A stretch of DNA of 64,000 bases from Bacteroidales bacterium (GTDB taxonomy: Bacteria; Bacteroidota; Bacteroidia; Bacteroidales; UBA932): the NCBI GenBank assembly GCA_017427885.1, contig JAFRRW010000011.1, positions 496,001 through 560,000 of the forward strand. The letters are read 5' to 3'. Position 1 is the first letter of the stretch. Every line of letters starts with the position of its first letter. Below the pieces are notes generated by a model. It saw nothing but the letters and a program-made list of their open reading frames with translations, did not search any database and was not told the origin of the DNA. The position numbers and the translations under genes are program-made. Shown here piece after piece: positions 40,830 through 48,008 of the stretch.

Positions 40830-42170
40830 TCAGAAATCCAGGCTGTAACCGGGACGATAGTCGTAATGGAGCAGCTTGGTGGCCTCCGGATCGTCCATGA
40901 ATTTCTGTACGATGGGGTTCCAGACGACCGGGCGGCCGAGTTCCATTGCGATGTTGCCGAGGTTGCAGACGGTGCAGGAGGAATGGCCGATCTCGACGGG
41001 CACATTGGGATCGATCCTGGACCTGATGGATTCGATGAACTTGCGGTGGTGTCCGACCTTGGTCTCGTAGGGAACGGAGCCGTCGTCCTTCGCGGAAGCC
41101 ATGTCCCAGCGCTTGTCGGAGGCCTCGAAGATGCCGCGGCAGACCCTGATCCACCCCTTGTCTCCATAGATCTTGACGCCCGGGGTGCCGTCGTCGAACG
41201 GTTCCTCGGAAACTATTATGCCATTGTCATATTTATAAGTGAGGTGGTCATAGAAGCTGTATCCGGGAGGGATGATCTCGACAGGACCGGAGAGGTCCTT
41301 GCCTATGGACCACTGGGCGATGTCGAACATATGTGCGCCCCAGTCGGTCATAAGGCCGCCGCCGCTGACCTTGTACCAGCGCCAGGCGCCCCAGAGCTGC
41401 TCATCCTTTTCGGGGGTGATGATCGGGTCGAGGTCGGAGTGGTAACGGACGGTCGTGGGCAGGGGGCCGAGCCATTTATCCCAGTTGAGGCCTGCGGGAA
41501 CCTCCATATAAGGCAGGTTGTTCGGGGCGGGCGCTCCGGTGACGGGATTGACGTTGTTGCGTCCCACATACACCTTGACCATGCGGATGGCGCCGAGTTC
41601 ACCCTCGCGGGCGAGGGTGGCTGCGTGGAAGAATTCCTCGCTGGAGCGCTGCTGGCTGCCGACCTGGAGGATGCGGTTGTATTTGCGGACCGCCTTCACC
41701 AGCTGCTGTCCCTCATAGATCGTGAGGGTGAGGGGTTTTTCCAGATATATGTCCTTTCCCGCCTTGCAGGCCGCTATGGCTATGATCGCGTGCTGGTGGT
41801 CGGGTGTGGCGATGACGACCGCGTCGATGTCGGGACGGGCCAGGAGGTCCTGATAGTCCTCATATACATCCACCTTTACTTTCTTCTCCCCTTTCTTCGA
41901 ATAGTAATTGATTACCCTCCGCACGAAACGGTCCCTCTTGATGTCGTACACGTCGCATCCTGCGACCACGCGTACATCGTCCATCGAAATGAAACCGTTG
42001 AGGAGGTTCATCGCCTGCTGTCCGAGGCCTATGAAACCGAGGGTGATCTTGTCGCTTGCAGCTTTGCGGGGTTTTGCCGCAGGAGAGGCTACCGCATGTG
42101 CCAGGGATGAGGGAAGGATGAGACCTGCCGCTCCCAGGGCCGATGTTTTGAGGAAATCTCTTCTTTGCAT
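40830..42170 (-). CDS. Gfo/Idh/MocA-family oxidoreductase, exported
   Basis: A 446-aa NAD(P)-binding oxidoreductase. The N-terminus MQRRDFLKTSALGAAGLIL is a twin-arginine-like signal. The Rossmann motif is LGFIGLGQQAMNLL near residues 43-56. DAVVIATPDHQHAIIA and DIYLEKPLTLT carry the conserved Asp-His and EKP lysine. GGGLMTDWGAHMFDIAQW is typical of the C-terminal sheet domain. Such exported members in Bacteroidota have mostly unknown sugar substrates. It is a single-gene unit, divergent from the Hdr-like cluster, with no clean -7 box. Confidence 0.85.
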   Translation of the reverse strand: MQRRDFLKTSALGAAGLILPSSLAHAVASPAAKPRKAASDKITLGFIGLGQQAMNLLNGFISMDDVRVVAGCDVYDIKRDRFVRRVINYYSKKGEKKVKVDVYEDYQDLLARPDIDAVVIATPDHQHAIIAIAACKAGKDIYLEKPLTLTIYEGQQLVKAVRKYNRILQVGSQQRSSEEFFHAATLAREGELGAIRMVKVYVGRNNVNPVTGAPAPNNLPYMEVPAGLNWDKWLGPLPTTVRYHSDLDPIITPEKDEQLWGAWRWYKVSGGGLMTDWGAHMFDIAQWSIGKDLSGPVEIIPPGYSFYDHLTYKYDNGIIVSEEPFDDGTPGVKIYGDKGWIRVCRGIFEASDKRWDMASAKDDGSVPYETKVGHHRKFIESIRSRIDPNVPVEIGHSSCTVCNLGNIAMELGRPVVWNPIVQKFMDDPEATKLLHYDYRPGYSLDF

Positions 42171-42216
42171 AATTATGTGGGATTGACAAATGTTTCACGA
42201 AGATACTGAAAATTTT

Positions 42217-42224
42217 TATATTTG
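42217..42224 (+). promoter_or_regulatory. -7 box of the Hdr-like operon
   Basis: TATATTTG, with GTTTC 20 bases upstream in place of a perfect -33. Transcription would begin near 42229. Confidence 0.55.
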
Positions 42225-42257
42225 TGGTGACGACTAATGCCAAAAACCTGTTCCCTT

Positions 42258-42956
42258 ATGGGCAAACTTTATGATATGCTTATGCAGGACTATCGGCTTC
42301 GCGAGGGGCTGAACGCCTGCATCAATTGCGGAACCTGCACCGCGGTATGCCCTGCCGCCGAATTCTACCGCTATGACCCCCGCCGGATAGTGGATGTCGT
42401 TCAGAGCCAAGATGACTCAAAAATAGAGGAACTCCTCAAGGGGGATGTCATATGGTATTGCGGCGAATGCATGAGTTGCGTGACGCGCTGTCCAAGGAAG
42501 AACGGTCCGGGCCTTGTCATAATGGCCCTGAGGTCCCTCTCCATTGACCTCGGTTATTTCATCGAATCTGAAAAAGGCCGCCAGCAATATCTTCTCTCCA
42601 AAGACCTTTGCGGCAATGTCTTGAACTACGGCTACTGCGTATATCCTCGTGAATTCGATTATAAATCCCACCCTGAGGCAGGACCTGTCTGGGAGTGGGA
42701 GGAAAAACACTTGGAGGACGTGTTCGAGAGGCTGGGGGCCAACCTGGACGGAGACGGCCCCGGAGCCATGAGGAAGATACCCGACGAGGACCTTGCGCAA
42801 CTTAAGAGGATATTCGACATAACCGGGGCCACGAAGAGGATGGAATCGGTGAGGGAGGCGGGTAGGAAGAAAGCCGAGGAACTCGGTCTGACCGAGGAGG
42901 AGTTCTGCACCTTACTTTATGAACAATCCAGCCCAAGACACCTGAACGGACAATGA
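42258..42956 (+). CDS. HdrC-like 4Fe-4S protein
   Basis: A 232-aa protein with two ferredoxin-type clusters: CINCGTCTAVCP (Cys21, 24, 27, 31) and CGECMSCVTRCP (Cys68, 71, 74, 78). The last cysteine of each motif is followed by Pro, as in HdrC. The remaining 150 residues are helical and charged. An ATG at 42237 is in frame but lies 8 bases from the predicted transcript start; MGKLYDML at 42258 is preferred. It is the first of five overlapping or adjacent genes and would pass electrons between the HdrB-like and membrane subunits. Confidence 0.85.
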   Translation: MGKLYDMLMQDYRLREGLNACINCGTCTAVCPAAEFYRYDPRRIVDVVQSQDDSKIEELLKGDVIWYCGECMSCVTRCPRKNGPGLVIMALRSLSIDLGYFIESEKGRQQYLLSKDLCGNVLNYGYCVYPREFDYKSHPEAGPVWEWEEKHLEDVFERLGANLDGDGPGAMRKIPDEDLAQLKRIFDITGATKRMESVREAGRKKAEELGLTEEEFCTLLYEQSSPRHLNGQ

Positions 42957-44023
42957 TTTACGAAGGAAAGAGAAAAATCTGGTCGGATTACCAGAAGGAA
43001 ATACCGGACGACCATTATTTCTACGTCCGCAGCTGCATCAGGCAGTCTTTTTTCCCCGCGTCGGAAGCGGCCTTCCTGAATATAACCCGTAACATCCTCG
43101 GAAGGGACGTCTTCGAAACCGAACACCACACCACCTGCGGGGGCATAGCCTACCATTCCGACACCATTCCCCAGGAGACCGTTATGACCATTGTGGCCCG
43201 CCAGTTCGCCCTTATGCATAAGCACGGCTACGAAAACTATGTCTGCTCCTGCATCACCTCCTTCGGGGTCTATATCGAGACCCTTGAGACCTGGAGGACC
43301 TTCCCTGAACTGGAGGCGAAGATTGCCGACAACCTCAGGAAAACCTGCAACCTTGAGTTCGCGAAACCCAGGTTCGTCGTCCACGCAAGCGACCTTATAT
43401 ATAAATTAAGGGAGGAAATCGCCGCCAAGGCGAAATACAAACTCGTGAACGCCAAAACGGGGGAACCTCTGAAGGTGGTCGAGCATATCGGCTGCCACTA
43501 TTCGAAAATGTTCCCGTCCAAGGGAGTAGGAGGAGCAGAGTACCCATATGTCCTGACAGGAATGATTGAGGCCTGGGGAGGGGAAATCGTGGACTATCCG
43601 GAAAGGCGCCATTGCTGCGGTTTCGGTTTCAGGCAGTATTTCATCAAGGGTAACAGGGGTTACTCCCTTTCCAATACACATAAGAAATTCGAGAGCATGG
43701 AGCCCTACGAGCCGGATTTCATCATCACCAACTGTCCTGGCTGCCCTTATTTCCTGGACCGTTGGCAGTATGTCATTGCCGAATCCGAAGGGAAGACCTA
43801 CGGGAAGGACGGGCACGGGATACCTGTGCTCACCTATGAGGAAGTCGCCGGCCTGGTGCTGGGATTCGACCCCTGGGACCTCGGCCTCCAGACCCATCAG
43901 GTGGCCGTGGAGCCCCTTCTTGACAAGTTGGGCATCCCTTATGATAAAGAGAAGAAGTTCCTTGGAGCAGGGGGGAAGGACCTTGGCCGCCCCGCCCTCC
44001 CTTCGTGTCTAAAATGTATGTAA
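42953..44023 (+). CDS. HdrB-like CCG-domain protein
   Basis: A 356-aa relative of HdrB, the subunit of heterodisulfide reductase that splits the disulfide on noncubane Fe-S clusters. The second CCG motif is complete: Cys181, Cys221-Cys222, Cys261, Cys264 (GCHYSKMFP, HCCGFGF, NCPGCPY). The first is altered: Cys28, then TTCGG at Cys62 in place of CC, and CSC at 98-100 in place of CxxC. The start overlaps the HdrC-like stop by 4 bases (ATGA). The substrate is unknown, since Bacteroidales do not make coenzymes M and B. Confidence 0.83.
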   Translation: MIYEGKRKIWSDYQKEIPDDHYFYVRSCIRQSFFPASEAAFLNITRNILGRDVFETEHHTTCGGIAYHSDTIPQETVMTIVARQFALMHKHGYENYVCSCITSFGVYIETLETWRTFPELEAKIADNLRKTCNLEFAKPRFVVHASDLIYKLREEIAAKAKYKLVNAKTGEPLKVVEHIGCHYSKMFPSKGVGGAEYPYVLTGMIEAWGGEIVDYPERRHCCGFGFRQYFIKGNRGYSLSNTHKKFESMEPYEPDFIITNCPGCPYFLDRWQYVIAESEGKTYGKDGHGIPVLTYEEVAGLVLGFDPWDLGLQTHQVAVEPLLDKLGIPYDKEKKFLGAGGKDLGRPALPSCLKCM

Positions 44024-45031
44024 ATGGCAAAGAACATCATCGTCATAGGCGGAGGGCCCGCCGGATTGGAGGCTTCGGCCAGGCTTGACGCCCTCGGATA
44101 TACCGTCTTCCTGGTTGAACGGGACAACCACCTCGGCGGCCACCTTGCTCTCTGGGACAGGCTCTTCCCTTCCGGAGACCCCGCCGAACCGGTTCTCAGG
44201 GGCCTGGTTTCCAAGACCGGAAGCACGAAGATTCTCCTGGAGTCGGAGGTGCAGACGCTTAACCGCCTGGGGAAGTCCTTCAGGATATCCCTTTCCTCCG
44301 GAGTGAGCGTCATCGCGGACGCCGTCCTGCTCACTACGGGCTTCGACCTTTTCGACGCGTCCAAAAAGGAGGAATACGGCTATGGAATCTATGACCACGT
44401 GGTTACCAATGCCGACATCGAAAGTTATTTTCGCACCGGGAAGGATCCTAGGATCGACAACCCCGAAAGGATAGGAATAGTTCATTGCGTCGGTTCGAGG
44501 GACGAGAAGGCTGGATGCCGCAACTGCTCCAAGGTGTGCTGCGCCACCGCGGTGAAACAAGCCTGCGAACTGAAGGCCAAGTTCCCCAAGGCGAAGGTCT
44601 ATTGTTTCTATATGGACCTCAGGATGTTCGGGAGGGGATATGAAGACCTCTATCTCAAGGCCCAGAAGGAATATGGGGTGAGGTTCATCAGGGGACGGGT
44701 TTCCGAGGTGTCGGAAAAGATTGACAAGACCCTGCAGGTGAAGGCGGAGGACACCCTCTCCAGCACCCCGCTGAAAGTGAGTCTCGACCTGCTTGTGCTG
44801 ATGGCCGGAATGAGGCCGTCCAAGTCGGGATCGAAAGTTGCGAAAATGATCCGCCTGGACACAGGAGAGGATGGCTATCTTTCTGTCGCCGACGGGTTTA
44901 CCGGGATGCAGGCCACAACCATACCGGGCCTGTTCGTAGCCGGGGCCGCGACTGGTCCCAAGACCCTTCCTGAGACCCTGGCGGAGGCCAGGGCCGCGTC
45001 AGCCCTTATCCACGATTATCTCAAGGGATGA
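44024..45031 (+). CDS. HdrA-like FAD-binding protein
   Basis: A 335-aa short HdrA/QmoA-type flavoprotein. The FAD motif IGGGPAG is at 8-14, HLGGHLALWDR is the following loop, and ADAVLLTTGFDLFD the second nucleotide segment. The HdrA cysteine signature is Cys155, 165, 168, 172 and 173 (CVGSRD then CRNCSKVCC). GLFVAGAATGPKTLPETLAEA closes the FAD site. Full HdrA (about 650 aa) has extra ferredoxin domains that are absent here, as in QmoA. It begins directly after the HdrB-like stop. Confidence 0.85.
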   Translation: MAKNIIVIGGGPAGLEASARLDALGYTVFLVERDNHLGGHLALWDRLFPSGDPAEPVLRGLVSKTGSTKILLESEVQTLNRLGKSFRISLSSGVSVIADAVLLTTGFDLFDASKKEEYGYGIYDHVVTNADIESYFRTGKDPRIDNPERIGIVHCVGSRDEKAGCRNCSKVCCATAVKQACELKAKFPKAKVYCFYMDLRMFGRGYEDLYLKAQKEYGVRFIRGRVSEVSEKIDKTLQVKAEDTLSSTPLKVSLDLLVLMAGMRPSKSGSKVAKMIRLDTGEDGYLSVADGFTGMQATTIPGLFVAGAATGPKTLPETLAEARAASALIHDYLKG

Positions 45032-45354
45032 TAGATTTCGGTTTCCATATAACTCCCAGCGGCACCCTGAATCTGGACGATGTCGATCAGAAAACGGTCG
45101 ACACCCTCTCCCGTGCGGACTACGGATTCAGGACCTGCATCGCCTGTGGAAGCTGCACGGCTTCCTGTCCTGCCGGCGTTTTTTCCGAAACCAGCGTCCG
45201 CCAGGCGATCCTATCCGTCCTCAACGGCAAGGATGAAAAGGCTTTGCGCCTGCTTTCTTCCTGCATGCTTTGCGGGAAATGCCTTATGGTTTGCCCGAGG
45301 GGAATAAACACCCGTCACCTTATCCTTTCTCTCCAAAAACAATTCGAAGGATGA
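45028..45354 (+). CDS. Second HdrC-like 4Fe-4S protein (short)
   Basis: A 108-aa protein with two 4Fe-4S motifs, CIACGSCTASCP (Cys37, 40, 43, 47) and CMLCGKCLMVCP (Cys79, 82, 85, 89). The size and spacing match the HdrC core. It overlaps both neighbours by 4 bases (ATGA at each end). It probably wires the HdrA-like flavin to the membrane subunit. Confidence 0.87.
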   Translation: MIDFGFHITPSGTLNLDDVDQKTVDTLSRADYGFRTCIACGSCTASCPAGVFSETSVRQAILSVLNGKDEKALRLLSSCMLCGKCLMVCPRGINTRHLILSLQKQFEG

Positions 45355-47213
45355 CGGTGCCGTTCCTCATATCACAGGTTTCTTCTCCTGAGATAATCGA
45401 CAGGATTCCGGGGGCTTACGACCATTTCGTGCTGCCGTTCTGCATAGGGATGGTCTTCTGTCTGTGCTGGCTCGGCGTGGGGCTGGTCAGAGTGCTGGCC
45501 AACCTCAGTTCCTCCGACCGTAAGGACCTCCTCCTTTCCTTCCTCAACCCCAAGATCCTCTGGAAGGATATCAAGGACATCTTCTGCGACTGCCTGCTCC
45601 ACCTGAAGATATGGCAGAGGAAACCCCTCCTGGGCTATATGCACAGCGCCATCGCCCTGGGATGGTTCCTCCTCATCGTGCTCGGCCATCTGGAAGTCTG
45701 GCTTTTCGCCCCCAGGCACCTCTACCTTGACAACGGGGCCCTTTTCTACCCCATTTTCTACAGGTATTTCATCTGGATGAATCCGGGACACACCACCCTC
45801 AGGGGCTCCCTGTTCTTCTTCCTGATGGACCTCTGCCTGCTGTATGTCCTTTCCGGAATCGCCCTGGCGGTGTTCAAGCGGTTCCGGTCGAAACTCCTGG
45901 GGATGAAACACACCACCAAGCCCTCGCTTATGGACAGGGTGGCCCTCTATTCCCTCTGGGGAATTTTCCCCCTTAGGCTTCTGGCCGAAAGTTTTACAGC
46001 CGACCTTGCTGGCGGCAGTTTCCTCACTCTCCCGGCCAACGCCCTTTTGCGGTACCTTTTCGGTGAAAACCTTTATTTCCTGCCCTGGTGGTGGGCCTAT
46101 TCCATCTGCCTCGGCCTTTTCTTCGTGAGCCTTCCGTTCACGAGATATATGCACATCCTCACCGAGCCCCTTCTGATCGTGATGAGGAACGCCGGCATCA
46201 AGGTGCGCCATCCGAGGAAGGGTTTCGCCGAGGCGGAAATCTATGCCTGCTCCAGTTGCGGCCTCTGCCTGGATGCCTGCCCGATGAACGTCCAGAAGAA
46301 GAACCTGAGGTTCTCCTCGGTCTATTTCATCCGCTTCCTAAGGAGGCATAATGAGAAGAAAATCAACAGGATAGCCGACAAGTGCCTGCAATGCGGCAAA
46401 TGTCTGGCCCTATGCCCCGTCGGGGTGGATTCCCCTGCCATCCGCCGCCGCCAGAGAGCCGCGGGCAACGATCCTCTTCCTTTTGATTATTCCGCCTTGA
46501 AGAGTCCCGTTCCCGCCGGAGGGGAGGGAAAGGTGATGTATTTCGCCGGCTGTATGTCCCACCTTACCCCGAGGATAATCAAGGCCGTCCTGGAGGTGTT
46601 CCGCAAGGCCGGAGAAGAGTTCGTTTTCGCCGATGAAGACGGTGGAATCTGCTGCGGAAGGCCGCTTATGCTGGCCGGGAAGGACCGGGCCGCGAGGGAG
46701 GTCATAGAGGCCAACAGGAAGATGATCCTGGAATCCGGATGCACCACGCTGGTGCTTTCCTGCCCTATCTGCCTGAAGGTGTTCAGGGAGGAATATAATC
46801 TGGATGGAATTGAAATCCTGCACTATACTGAATATATGGACAGGCTGGCCTCCCGGGGGAGGATAATCATCGACAGGAAGGCCGTCTCCTATGTCTATCA
46901 CGACCCCTGCGAACTCGGCAGGGGCTGCGGGATATACGATGCGCCAAGGAGATTGGTGGAAGCGTCAGGGGAATTGAGGAAAGCCGGCAAGGAGGGAGAC
47001 GAGAGCGTATGCTGCGGCGGAAGCTTAGGAAGCCTGACCTTGAATTACGAGGACAGGGGAAAGATAACGGCCGGGGCGCTCGAGAACCTGCTCGCGAACA
47101 ACCCCGACCGTATAGTGACGGCCTGTCCCCTCTGCCTCAAGACCTTCTCCGACGCAACTCCCGGCGTTCCGGTCGTAGATATCGCCGAACTCGTGGCGGG
47201 AGATACCGTCTGA
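45351..47213 (+). CDS. Membrane cytochrome-b / 4Fe-4S / CCG fusion (HdrE-HdrD or DsrM-DsrK-like)
   Basis: A 620-aa fusion. Residues 1-290 hold five or six membrane helices of the NarI/DsrM/HdrE type, with His residues in YMHSAIALGWFLLIVLGH and TRYMHILTEP that could bind haem b. Two 4Fe-4S motifs follow, CSSCGLCLDACP near 300 and CLQCGKCLALCP near 345. The C-terminal half has two CCG domains, GCMSHLTP...GICCG...CPICLK and DPCELG...VCCGG...CPLCLK. It would join a membrane quinone pool to a thiol or disulfide site. ATG overlaps the upstream stop by 4 bases. Confidence 0.85.
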   Translation: MTVPFLISQVSSPEIIDRIPGAYDHFVLPFCIGMVFCLCWLGVGLVRVLANLSSSDRKDLLLSFLNPKILWKDIKDIFCDCLLHLKIWQRKPLLGYMHSAIALGWFLLIVLGHLEVWLFAPRHLYLDNGALFYPIFYRYFIWMNPGHTTLRGSLFFFLMDLCLLYVLSGIALAVFKRFRSKLLGMKHTTKPSLMDRVALYSLWGIFPLRLLAESFTADLAGGSFLTLPANALLRYLFGENLYFLPWWWAYSICLGLFFVSLPFTRYMHILTEPLLIVMRNAGIKVRHPRKGFAEAEIYACSSCGLCLDACPMNVQKKNLRFSSVYFIRFLRRHNEKKINRIADKCLQCGKCLALCPVGVDSPAIRRRQRAAGNDPLPFDYSALKSPVPAGGEGKVMYFAGCMSHLTPRIIKAVLEVFRKAGEEFVFADEDGGICCGRPLMLAGKDRAAREVIEANRKMILESGCTTLVLSCPICLKVFREEYNLDGIEILHYTEYMDRLASRGRIIIDRKAVSYVYHDPCELGRGCGIYDAPRRLVEASGELRKAGKEGDESVCCGGSLGSLTLNYEDRGKITAGALENLLANNPDRIVTACPLCLKTFSDATPGVPVVDIAELVAGDTV

Positions 47214-47216
47214 TCC

Positions 47217-48008
47217 CTATCTGCTGGCTACATACTTGACGTCAACCCCGTCTTTCCCGACGGTCACTACGTTATATCCTGGGAAACCGTGTCCCAGGGG
47301 GTTGCAGACTGGTCCGGCGGTTATGAGGCGGATGCCTTCGACCTCCGAGAAATAGTGCCTGTGGCAGTGTCCCGAGAAGACGATGTCCACCCCGTACTTC
47401 TTTAGGAGGTCGATATATTTCCTTCTCTTTTCCATCGGAAAACTCTCATATCCTTCCTCCTCGTCCATGGACACCCGGACTATAGGGCAATGCTGGAATA
47501 CGAACTTGTACTTGCAGTCTTTCGCGGCCGCGAGTTCCTTCTCCAACCACTCCCATTGCTCGGCCTCCATTTCCGGTACGTCGTCCTTTATCGTATTGGA
47601 ATTGATACCGATGAATGCACAGCCGTTCTTCTTGAAGGAGAAACGGTCGTATCCGCGGCGGTCGATATAGGCCTGGCGCTTTTCGGGAGAGCTTCCGTGG
47701 TAGTCGTGGTTTCCGGGCGTGAGGTACACGGGGGGCTCGAATTCGGCGAGACGCACCTTGAATATGGAATCCTGGACCGGATACGAATAGTCGTCCAAAA
47801 GGTCTCCGGTTATGATGACGCAGGCGGGATGAAGGGAATTGGCCCCTTCCACCGCGGCCTTCATCAAGGAATCCGAGTGGCAGAAGGCCGGGGAGTCGTC
47901 CCTGAAACCTATCTGGGTGTCGCTCATCTGCACGAAAGTGAACGGCTCGAACCGGTTGCACGCTGCAACCAGCAGGATCAATGCAAGGGAAAAGAATCTG
48001 GTTTTCAT
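47217..48008 (-). CDS. Calcineurin-like phosphoesterase lipoprotein
   Basis: A 263-aa lipoprotein (MKTRFFSLALILLVAAC, Cys17). Metal motifs in order are QMSDTQIG, ITGDLLDD, TPGNHDYH, FQHCPIV and FSGHCHRHY. The start at 48008 is chosen over 48032 because of the lipobox and the -7 box at 48030-48037. It converges on the Hdr-like operon with a 3-base gap. The phosphoester substrate is unknown. Confidence 0.85.
   Translation of the reverse strand: MKTRFFSLALILLVAACNRFEPFTFVQMSDTQIGFRDDSPAFCHSDSLMKAAVEGANSLHPACVIITGDLLDDYSYPVQDSIFKVRLAEFEPPVYLTPGNHDYHGSSPEKRQAYIDRRGYDRFSFKKNGCAFIGINSNTIKDDVPEMEAEQWEWLEKELAAAKDCKYKFVFQHCPIVRVSMDEEEGYESFPMEKRRKYIDLLKKYGVDIVFSGHCHRHYFSEVEGIRLITAGPVCNPLGHGFPGYNVVTVGKDGVDVKYVASR

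Follow-up and report, generated by a model that had tools for sequence, protein, structure and literature searches.

The described systems closest to the locus analysed here include the sHdr systems, which occur in two layouts: type I, with the syntenic genes shdrC1B1AHC2B2, and type II, in which shdrC1B1AHB3 and etfAB stand in one cluster (PMC11582611; the papers cited here were available as partial texts, and what is said of them is limited to those parts). The sHdr relatives form sulfite (PMC10332631, PMC11582611), and nearly all genomes with shdr genes also encode the lipoate-binding partner LbpA (PMC10332631). In sulfonolipid synthesis, cysteate synthase, SulA/CFAT and a ketoreductase are already published, and the origin of sulfite in an anaerobe without sulfate assimilation is not stated in the parts available. 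Here we describe an Hdr-like operon in a 64-kb window from a Bacteroidales bacterium (the whole stretch of 64,000 nucleotides analysed), where five genes on the + strand at 42258-47213 encode HdrC1, HdrB, a short HdrA, a small HdrC2 and a cytochrome-b/4Fe-4S/2xCCG fusion. This operon is real, widespread across Bacteroidales and sHdr-like, and in part of its range it is tied to cysteate and sulfonolipid synthesis, which is a new point. As judged from sequence, the best explanation, to which we give somewhat less than an even chance, is a menaquinone-linked sHdr-like complex that would make sulfite for cysteate and then sulfonolipids.

An sHdr-like core with a membrane subunit

Residues 3-326 of the 335-residue HdrA align with 6tjr_A (349 aa, E 8.8e-65), which we take to be the sHdrA structure from Hyphomicrobium. 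Methanogen HdrAs align with the window HdrA in split segments only, and the window protein has neither the N-terminal domain nor the C-terminal ferredoxin domains; it is the short sHdrA-type flavoprotein by which sHdr systems are recognized. A tree such as the initial annotation had proposed, built from a chosen sample of 46 rows over the shared core, unites operon HdrAs, a cyanobacterial HdrA and 6tjr (97/95) and keeps the HdrAs of methanogens and the long ones of Bacteroidales outside this clade; the precise position of 6tjr is unsure because it is a long branch. The same annotation had read the locus as a soluble HdrABC with an HdrDE-type arm. An HdrCBA-type core and an HdrDE-like arm are indeed found, but the core is not of the methanogen HdrABC type, its HdrA being short and sHdrA-like.

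The operon shares with sHdr type I of sulfur oxidizers such as Hyphomicrobium denitrificans the C1-B1-A ... C2 order and the short 6tjr-type HdrA. It differs in lacking a gene at the place of sHdrH, so that C2 follows A directly, in replacing B2 with the membrane cytochrome-b/2xCCG fusion, which is EMO/HdrD-like, and in its carriers, gut and rumen Bacteroidales that are presumed anaerobes. The etfAB genes of type II are absent from the operon and, by eye, from the neighbour clusters common to at least 3 of 85 contexts. Because the core is sHdr-like and the layout differs from both definitions, the operon fits neither sHdr type.

A cyanobacterial counterpart lies on a plasmid of Picosynechococcus sp. 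PCC 7003 (L166 10119-15859), where C1-B1-A-C2-B2 genes stand with an NDH-2-like flavoprotein gene (by eye). In the tree its HdrA is nested within the rows from Bacteroidales (95/88), and identity to the window proteins is 49.5% for C1 (206 positions), 42% for B1 and 41% for A, over most of their length. The two clusters share this C1/B1/A similarity and an identical three-Cys N-terminal HdrB site, whereas the plasmid cluster has a soluble B2, the flavoprotein and a longer C2 and no membrane fusion. The set compared for HdrB consisted of methanogen and cyanobacterial proteins.

With the methanogen HdrABC/HdrDE system the operon shares the HdrA fold, the HdrB CCG chemistry and HdrE/HdrD-like domains, but its HdrA is half-size and without ferredoxin domains, its HdrD- and HdrE-like parts are fused, and its scores are under the equivalog cut-offs. 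QmoABC is presumably similar in combining an HdrA-like flavoprotein, an HdrC and a cytochrome b; the window operon has no second HdrA-like subunit (QmoB), and the qmoC model scores 45/300 bits. The best NCBIfam models for C1, B and A are HdrC (84/350 bits), HdrB (139/450) and HdrA2 (243/1100), and those for C2 and the fusion are HdrC and LdhH/TfrB/GlpC-type CCG proteins, all far under their curated cut-offs. Pfam finds a 4Fe-4S dicluster domain in C1, C2 and the fusion, one CCG domain in HdrB and two in the fusion, and the pyridine-nucleotide-disulphide-oxidoreductase fold in HdrA. Only three CCG stretches were found in the window's genome (1.87 Mb, 81% complete), every one in the Hdr operon.

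Residue conservation was scored over fetched loci inside set length limits, some genomes being counted twice. HdrC1 has eight invariant Cys and one further Cys kept in 170/171 rows, and HdrC2 has eight (152/152 rows). The C-terminal CCG site of HdrB is complete (C181, C221, C222, C261 and C264 in 174/174 rows), whereas in its N-terminal site three Cys are invariant (C28, C62 and C100 in 174/174 rows, the cyanobacterial row included), residue 61 being Thr or Ser and residue 98 Cys in 82 of 174 rows. The initial annotation had proposed a menaquinone-linked reduction of a low-molecular thiol or disulfide, in accord with the homology of HdrB to reductases of CoM-S-S-CoB (the disulfide of coenzymes M and B) and with CCG sites that are preserved whole in the fusion and at the C terminus of HdrB. 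Such a reaction is improbable given an N-terminal HdrB site with three of five Cys invariant over 174 rows and an HdrA of the sHdr type, and it would leave the linkage to cysteate and CFAT genes described below unexplained.

The fusion conserves its eight ferredoxin Cys, and the five Cys of each of its two CCG sites, in 151 or 152 of 152 rows. Its N terminus, where Pfam gives no hit, contains four distinct hydrophobic stretches (21-56, 92-122, 149-180 and 243-271) and the His residues H84, H98 and H268 in 152/152 rows (H113 in 91), which suggest a cytochrome-b-like domain. Among solved chains it comes closest to the iron-sulfur-binding reductase 9ojn (75 bits), which we take to be an EtfD-type ETF:menaquinone oxidoreductase, and by analogy only this supports a role of the fusion as the quinone-reducing arm. 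The menaquinone link suggested at the outset is thus plausible as quinone coupling, by architecture only. Presumably EMO and EtfD likewise combine cytochrome b, two [4Fe-4S] clusters and two CCG domains in a single chain, and the fusion has this domain set, its cytochrome-b part being predicted. It might then admit electrons from EtfAB to the quinone with the Hdr genes as adaptors, as its architecture and the match to 9ojn would allow. The fusion, however, belongs to an Hdr operon, etfAB is not seen by eye among its recurrent neighbours (the genomes were not searched for EtfAB), and type II sHdr requires etfAB in the cluster (PMC11582611), so that we give an EtfAB entry hardly any credence.

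Spread and conservation of the gene order

The order C1-B-A-C2-fusion is found in 70/80 named loci, the best 80 of 499 HdrB-encoding stretches in named genomes; of the other ten, seven end at a contig edge, two have one gene split and one has no called C2. Their record titles are nearly all Bacteroidales or Bacteroidia, many from rumen or gut, which bears out the gut-type Bacteroidales origin first assigned to the window. Order-level contexts comprised a chosen 79 of the carrier places and 7 earlier ones (86 in all, three genomes twice), 85 of them with HdrB. Among these 85 the five-gene order again prevails (72), next to C1-B only (8), C1-C2-fusion-B-A (2), B-A only (2) and a contig end (1). 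The gene order is therefore conserved, and the scattering of subunits that the initial annotation had considered is confined to a minority of contexts. Strong HdrB matches occur in 101/200 genus genomes, and the operon is present in 126/393 Bacteroidales genomes, about a third; a class-wide sample gave 3 carriers among 395 genomes, the window's own included, too few for co-occurrence analysis.

Linkage to cysteate and sulfonolipid genes

Cysteate synthase, of which three representatives beside the operon score 449-485 bits on TIGR03844 (cut-off 324.9), is encoded in 93/101 Hdr-carrying and 40/99 Hdr-lacking genus genomes (Fisher p 1.6e-15, uncorrected for descent), so that 8/101 carriers are without it. 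Of the 101 carriers, 30 have it as a full-length gene directly behind the fusion on the same strand, starting 3.05-3.32 kb past HdrB. Another genome (G260) retains a 102-base cysteate synthase remnant behind the operon, and three carry the operon and the gene far apart on the same contig. Among the 80 named loci, cysteate synthase is downstream on the same strand in 27 (26 by clustering). It is encoded in 73/76 tested named-locus genomes, made up of the 26 adjacent cases and 47/50 further genomes, these being 50 of 54 eligible.

A second tie is to the acyltransferase of sulfonolipid synthesis. An AONS-type acyltransferase gene lies at most four genes from the operon on the same strand in 6/175 loci of six families (L299, L301, L307, L313, L314 and L144), of which L144 belongs to the genus and the other five fall outside its family f1. 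In the Protein Data Bank (PDB) the L314 enzyme matches 7u7h at 634 bits and 28eh, 'Cysteate-C-fatty acyltransferase' (CFAT), at 593, against 254 for serine palmitoyltransferase (SPT). A Lys251/Lys281 pair was proposed by Radka et al. to separate SulA from SPT (PMC9304779). A Lys at +30 from the pyridoxal phosphate (PLP) Lys is present in 9/9 CFATs, six of them Hdr-linked and three linked to cysteate synthase in Hdr-lacking loci (L170, L173 and L176). An identity as SPT was rejected on this signature, on the PDB scores (254 vs 593 bits) and on the SPT model, where two proteins reach 310 and 286 of 640 bits.

The genes of the sulfonolipid (capnine) pathway (cysteate synthase, SulA/CapB/CFAT and 3-ketocapnine reductase), or their likenesses, thus adjoin the operon in several families (Table 1). 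Since L170, L173 and L176 carry the glyoxalase-like, CFAT and cysteate synthase genes with or without SDR, the L144 operon is inserted in a set that also occurs Hdr-free. The position of the operon beside or inside cysteate and sulfonolipid clusters in part of its range points to sulfite or sulfane sulfur as its partner, in place of the generic thiol/disulfide or flavin partner first suggested. A glyoxalase-like protein of about 355 aa (by eye) recurs with CFAT and/or Hdr in L144, L170, L173, L176, L297, L299 and L301.

The genomes of L299, L301, L307 and L313 have no canonical cysteate synthase; at these loci a PLP enzyme resembling threonine synthase is encoded close to CFAT and the Hdr operon or between the two. 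Its PDB scores are 80 bits to threonine synthases vs 47 to cysteate synthase, and it is under both curated cut-offs; it is only a candidate for a second cysteate synthase. A more specific reading joins this lineage to a third sHdr kind, a menaquinone-linked membrane complex independent of LbpA with which gut and rumen anaerobes would turn sulfide or persulfide into sulfite anabolically, for cysteate and sulfonolipids. We consider this possible and lean against it.

In the window's genome, cysteate synthase lies on another contig (G000:C5:44778-46055), where it immediately follows a gene that by eye resembles a Ca/Na antiporter, and sulfonolipid use by this strain is a conjecture. When L134 is compared with its relative L147, the Hdr operon lies between the antiporter-like gene and cysteate synthase in the relative; in the window's lineage, therefore, the operon lies elsewhere. 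The antiporter-like gene (by eye) is directly 5' of cysteate synthase in the genus genomes of L134 (7797-10059) and also of L168, L169, L171, L172, L174, L175, L177, L183 and L184, and some relatives have the Hdr operon between the two. In archaea, cysteate synthase begins one route to coenzyme M (CoM); nothing in this analysis shows CoM, though the window's genome encodes cysteate synthase.

Proposed sulfite supply and direction of electron flow

PF01507 (CysD/CysH) was absent in 33/37 genus genomes, the window's included (control positive 14/14), with hits in G002 (fragment), G003 (weak), G013 and G029, and absent in 11/14 of the Hdr-carrying genus genomes. With CysD/CysH missing from most genus genomes, the sulfite for cysteate synthase must have another origin there, and the operon is a testable candidate for that source. 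We infer that the five proteins would assemble into one complex working in an anaerobic cell, most likely in the sulfite-forming direction. The C1-B-A core, of the sHdrC1B1A type, would oxidize reduced sulfur (sulfide or persulfide) at the HdrB site, and electrons would pass from the flavin/4Fe-4S centre of HdrA through C2 and the cytochrome-b/CCG subunit to menaquinone and probably on to fumarate reductase as the sink. The sulfite product would feed cysteate synthase (O-phosphoserine + sulfite -> cysteate), and cysteate would pass through SulA/CFAT and the 3-ketoreductase to sulfonolipids.

The HS-/HSO3- couple lies at about -116 mV, menaquinone at about -74 mV and fumarate at about +30 mV. 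At such potentials, energetics would allow menaquinone to accept electrons from an sHdr-like oxidation of reduced sulfur. The values are also close enough to accommodate flow in reverse, in which menaquinol would drive the reduction or removal of sulfite, or of other oxidized sulfur species, near cysteate synthase. Sulfite is toxic, and a SulP-type anion permease lies near 11/175 loci, one of them on the opposite strand. It would, however, be wasteful for an operon to combine a sulfite consumer with a synthase that uses sulfite, and the sHdr relatives produce sulfite (PMC10332631, PMC11582611); we rate the reverse direction as distinctly improbable, a shade below thiol or disulfide reduction.

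Several observations weigh against a sulfite-forming complex devoted to sulfonolipids. Across the order, canonical cysteate synthase is found in 43/126 Hdr-carrying vs 61/267 Hdr-lacking genomes (odds ratio 1.75, p 0.02), leaving 83/126 carriers without it, and the co-occurrence counts are uncorrected for descent. A strict rule that Hdr serves cysteate synthase holds in the genus and is weak in the order, and was rejected as such. Conversely, cysteate synthase occurs in 40 genus genomes that have no Hdr; 11/12 of those screened are without PF01507, so another sulfite source must exist there. Seven order-level carriers gave strong PF01507 hits in G040, G042, G057 and G059, a weak one in G053 and none in G037 and G047, and from the four strong cases it follows that genomes with sulfate assimilation can carry the operon as well. 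The five CFAT-linked loci outside f1 (L299, L301, L307, L313 and L314) form one HdrA subclade (98/86), so the CFAT linkage perhaps reflects two or three events and not six. Five carriers with CFAT near Hdr (G681, G719, G744, G777 and G1007) have no canonical cysteate synthase; four of them have the threonine-synthase-like gene. In the window itself, no open reading frame matched the sulfonolipid queries, and the operon's own neighbours are a Gfo/Idh-type and a metallophosphoesterase gene; CFAT was not found in the window or L134, the two stretches to which its search was confined.

The partners of known sHdr pathways are likewise mostly missing. No second full-length GcvH-family copy was found in 14 Hdr-carrying genus genomes screened for LbpA, and the near-complete carriers G040 and G053 have no GcvH-family protein at all (control 13/14); another carrier, G057, has two further, weaker stretches (E 1.5e-26 and 2.5e-22). 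TusA was found in only 1/37 genus genomes (control 11/14) and is present in the carriers G040, G047 and G059. An LbpA-dependent sHdr pathway was rejected because the occurrence of GcvH-family copies does not follow that of the operon and two near-complete carriers have none, and TusA behaves likewise in the genus.

The breadth of the operon, with 126/393 Bacteroidales genomes carrying it and 83 of these lacking canonical cysteate synthase, would also suit a general quinone reductase that oxidizes sulfide or persulfide for detoxification or signalling, the sulfonolipid linkage being secondary where lineages use its sulfite. Methionine-gamma-lyase-like (L137, L283) and CoA-disulfide-reductase-like (L291) neighbours at a few loci agree with this, and Hdr was suggested as sulfide relief for Black Sea isolates (Yadav et al., PMC11129491). 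The specific placement inside cysteate/CFAT arrays and the 93/101 co-occurrence in the genus argue against such a general oxidizer, which we regard as rather unlikely. The methionine-gamma-lyase-like genes (L283 7264-8445, L137 17974-19155) and the CoA-disulfide-reductase-like gene (L291 4071-5762) lie directly beside a C1-B pair or the full operon, and are under the cut-offs of those models where scanned.

The partial text of Yadav et al. mentions Black Sea strains in which the Hdr genes for sulfur oxidation are complete, with possible sulfide relief, and in the same place names Bacteroidota such as Labilibaculum and Ancylomarina, in whose genera capnine lipids occur (PMC11129491); in L. euxinus these make up 24-33% (PMC12927429). 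An archaeal-type cysteate synthase is described in Alistipes and Odoribacter, and CapA in Capnocytophaga (review, PMC10191378), Cys, CFAT and KCR are treated in PMC11211663, and sulfonolipids from gut Bacteroidota (Alistipes, Odoribacter) count there as bioactive lipids (PMC10191378, PMC11211663). The available parts of these four texts do not connect Hdr with sulfonolipids, and a literature search, whose coverage excluded most subscription papers, found no paper with both 'sulfonolipid' and 'heterodisulfide'. If sulfite formation for sulfonolipids is true, Hdr-like sulfur oxidation extends from dissimilatory sulfur oxidizers into anabolism, and a function is gained for a complex in 126 of the 393 Bacteroidales genomes sampled.

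Operon layout, promoter and neighbouring genes

Table 1 Features of the window operon and gene orders of related arrays
Feature	Position	Strand	Basis or gene order
Putative promoter element TATATTTG	42217..42224	+	matches Bacteroides -7 element TAnnTTTG
HdrC1 (sHdrC1-like), two 4Fe-4S clusters	42258..42956 (alternative start 42237)	+	Pfam/NCBIfam, Cys conservation
HdrB (B1-type)	42953..44023	+	CCG domain, conserved Cys sites
Short HdrA (sHdrA-type FAD/4Fe-4S flavoprotein, 335 aa)	44024..45031	+	6tjr_A match, tree
HdrC2, small 2x[4Fe-4S] protein	45028..45354	+	Pfam, 8 invariant Cys
Membrane subunit, cytochrome-b-like/2x[4Fe-4S]/two CCG, EMO/EtfD/HdrD-like	45351..47213	+	Pfam, NCBIfam, PDB match, conservation
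L301 array			CFAT, threonine-synthase-like, C1, B, A, C2, fusion, SDR, glyoxalase-like
L307 array			CFAT, threonine-synthase-like, Hdr
L144 array			glyoxalase-like, CFAT, SDR, Hdr, cysteate synthase
L299 array			CFAT, threonine-synthase-like, SDR, glyoxalase-like, Hdr, in different order
L313 and L314 arrays			Hdr, then CFAT
L173 (Hdr-lacking)			glyoxalase-like, CFAT, SDR, cysteate synthase
L176 (Hdr-lacking)			glyoxalase-like, CFAT, cysteate synthase, SDR
L170 (Hdr-lacking)			glyoxalase-like, CFAT, cysteate synthase

The five genes follow one another as the initial annotation had them, joined by 4-base ATGA overlaps at 42953, 45028 and 45351 and by direct abutment at 44023/44024; mvhD, which it had proposed to look for elsewhere in the genome, is not in the operon. 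The HdrC1 start at 42258 is favoured over 42237 because close orthologues (L146, L147) begin with MGKLYD. The single promoter of the initial annotation fares less clearly. The sequence ahead of the operon matches TAnnTTTG, which we take to be the consensus of the Bacteroides-type -7 promoter element, and is compatible with one promoter there, not proof of it. Such matches number 33 across the window vs 15.6 expected, and a sigma-70-type scan of 42000-47600 gave 2 sites vs 2.7 in shuffles, no excess, one of them overlapping the element.

The operon is flanked in the window by a Gfo/Idh-type oxidoreductase gene on one side and a metallophosphoesterase gene on the other, with a GH92 gene beyond; the upstream neighbour recurs in the nearest relative, L004 (88% identity). 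A MarR-like regulator accompanies 49/80 named loci (50-bit threshold; 38 by clustering), upstream on the same strand wherever placed. By eye, a LuxR-type response regulator (14/85) and a histidine kinase (11/85) are encoded close to the operon, in most cases immediately 5' of it, which suggests signal control. A DUF5117-type putative metallopeptidase gene (about 815 aa, by eye) lies at most 50 bp behind the operon, replacing cysteate synthase, in 14/80 named loci (L006, L008, L009, L011, L013, L015-L018, L022, L025, L033, L038 and L039).

A second C1-B pair occurs without HdrA, C2 and the fusion in L238, L241, L244, L276, L283 and L291. It is surrounded, by eye, by genes for ferredoxin-type MinD/Mrp ATPases, NifX/NifB-like proteins and DUF134-type regulators, surroundings that presumably resemble the ORP genes of sulfate reducers.

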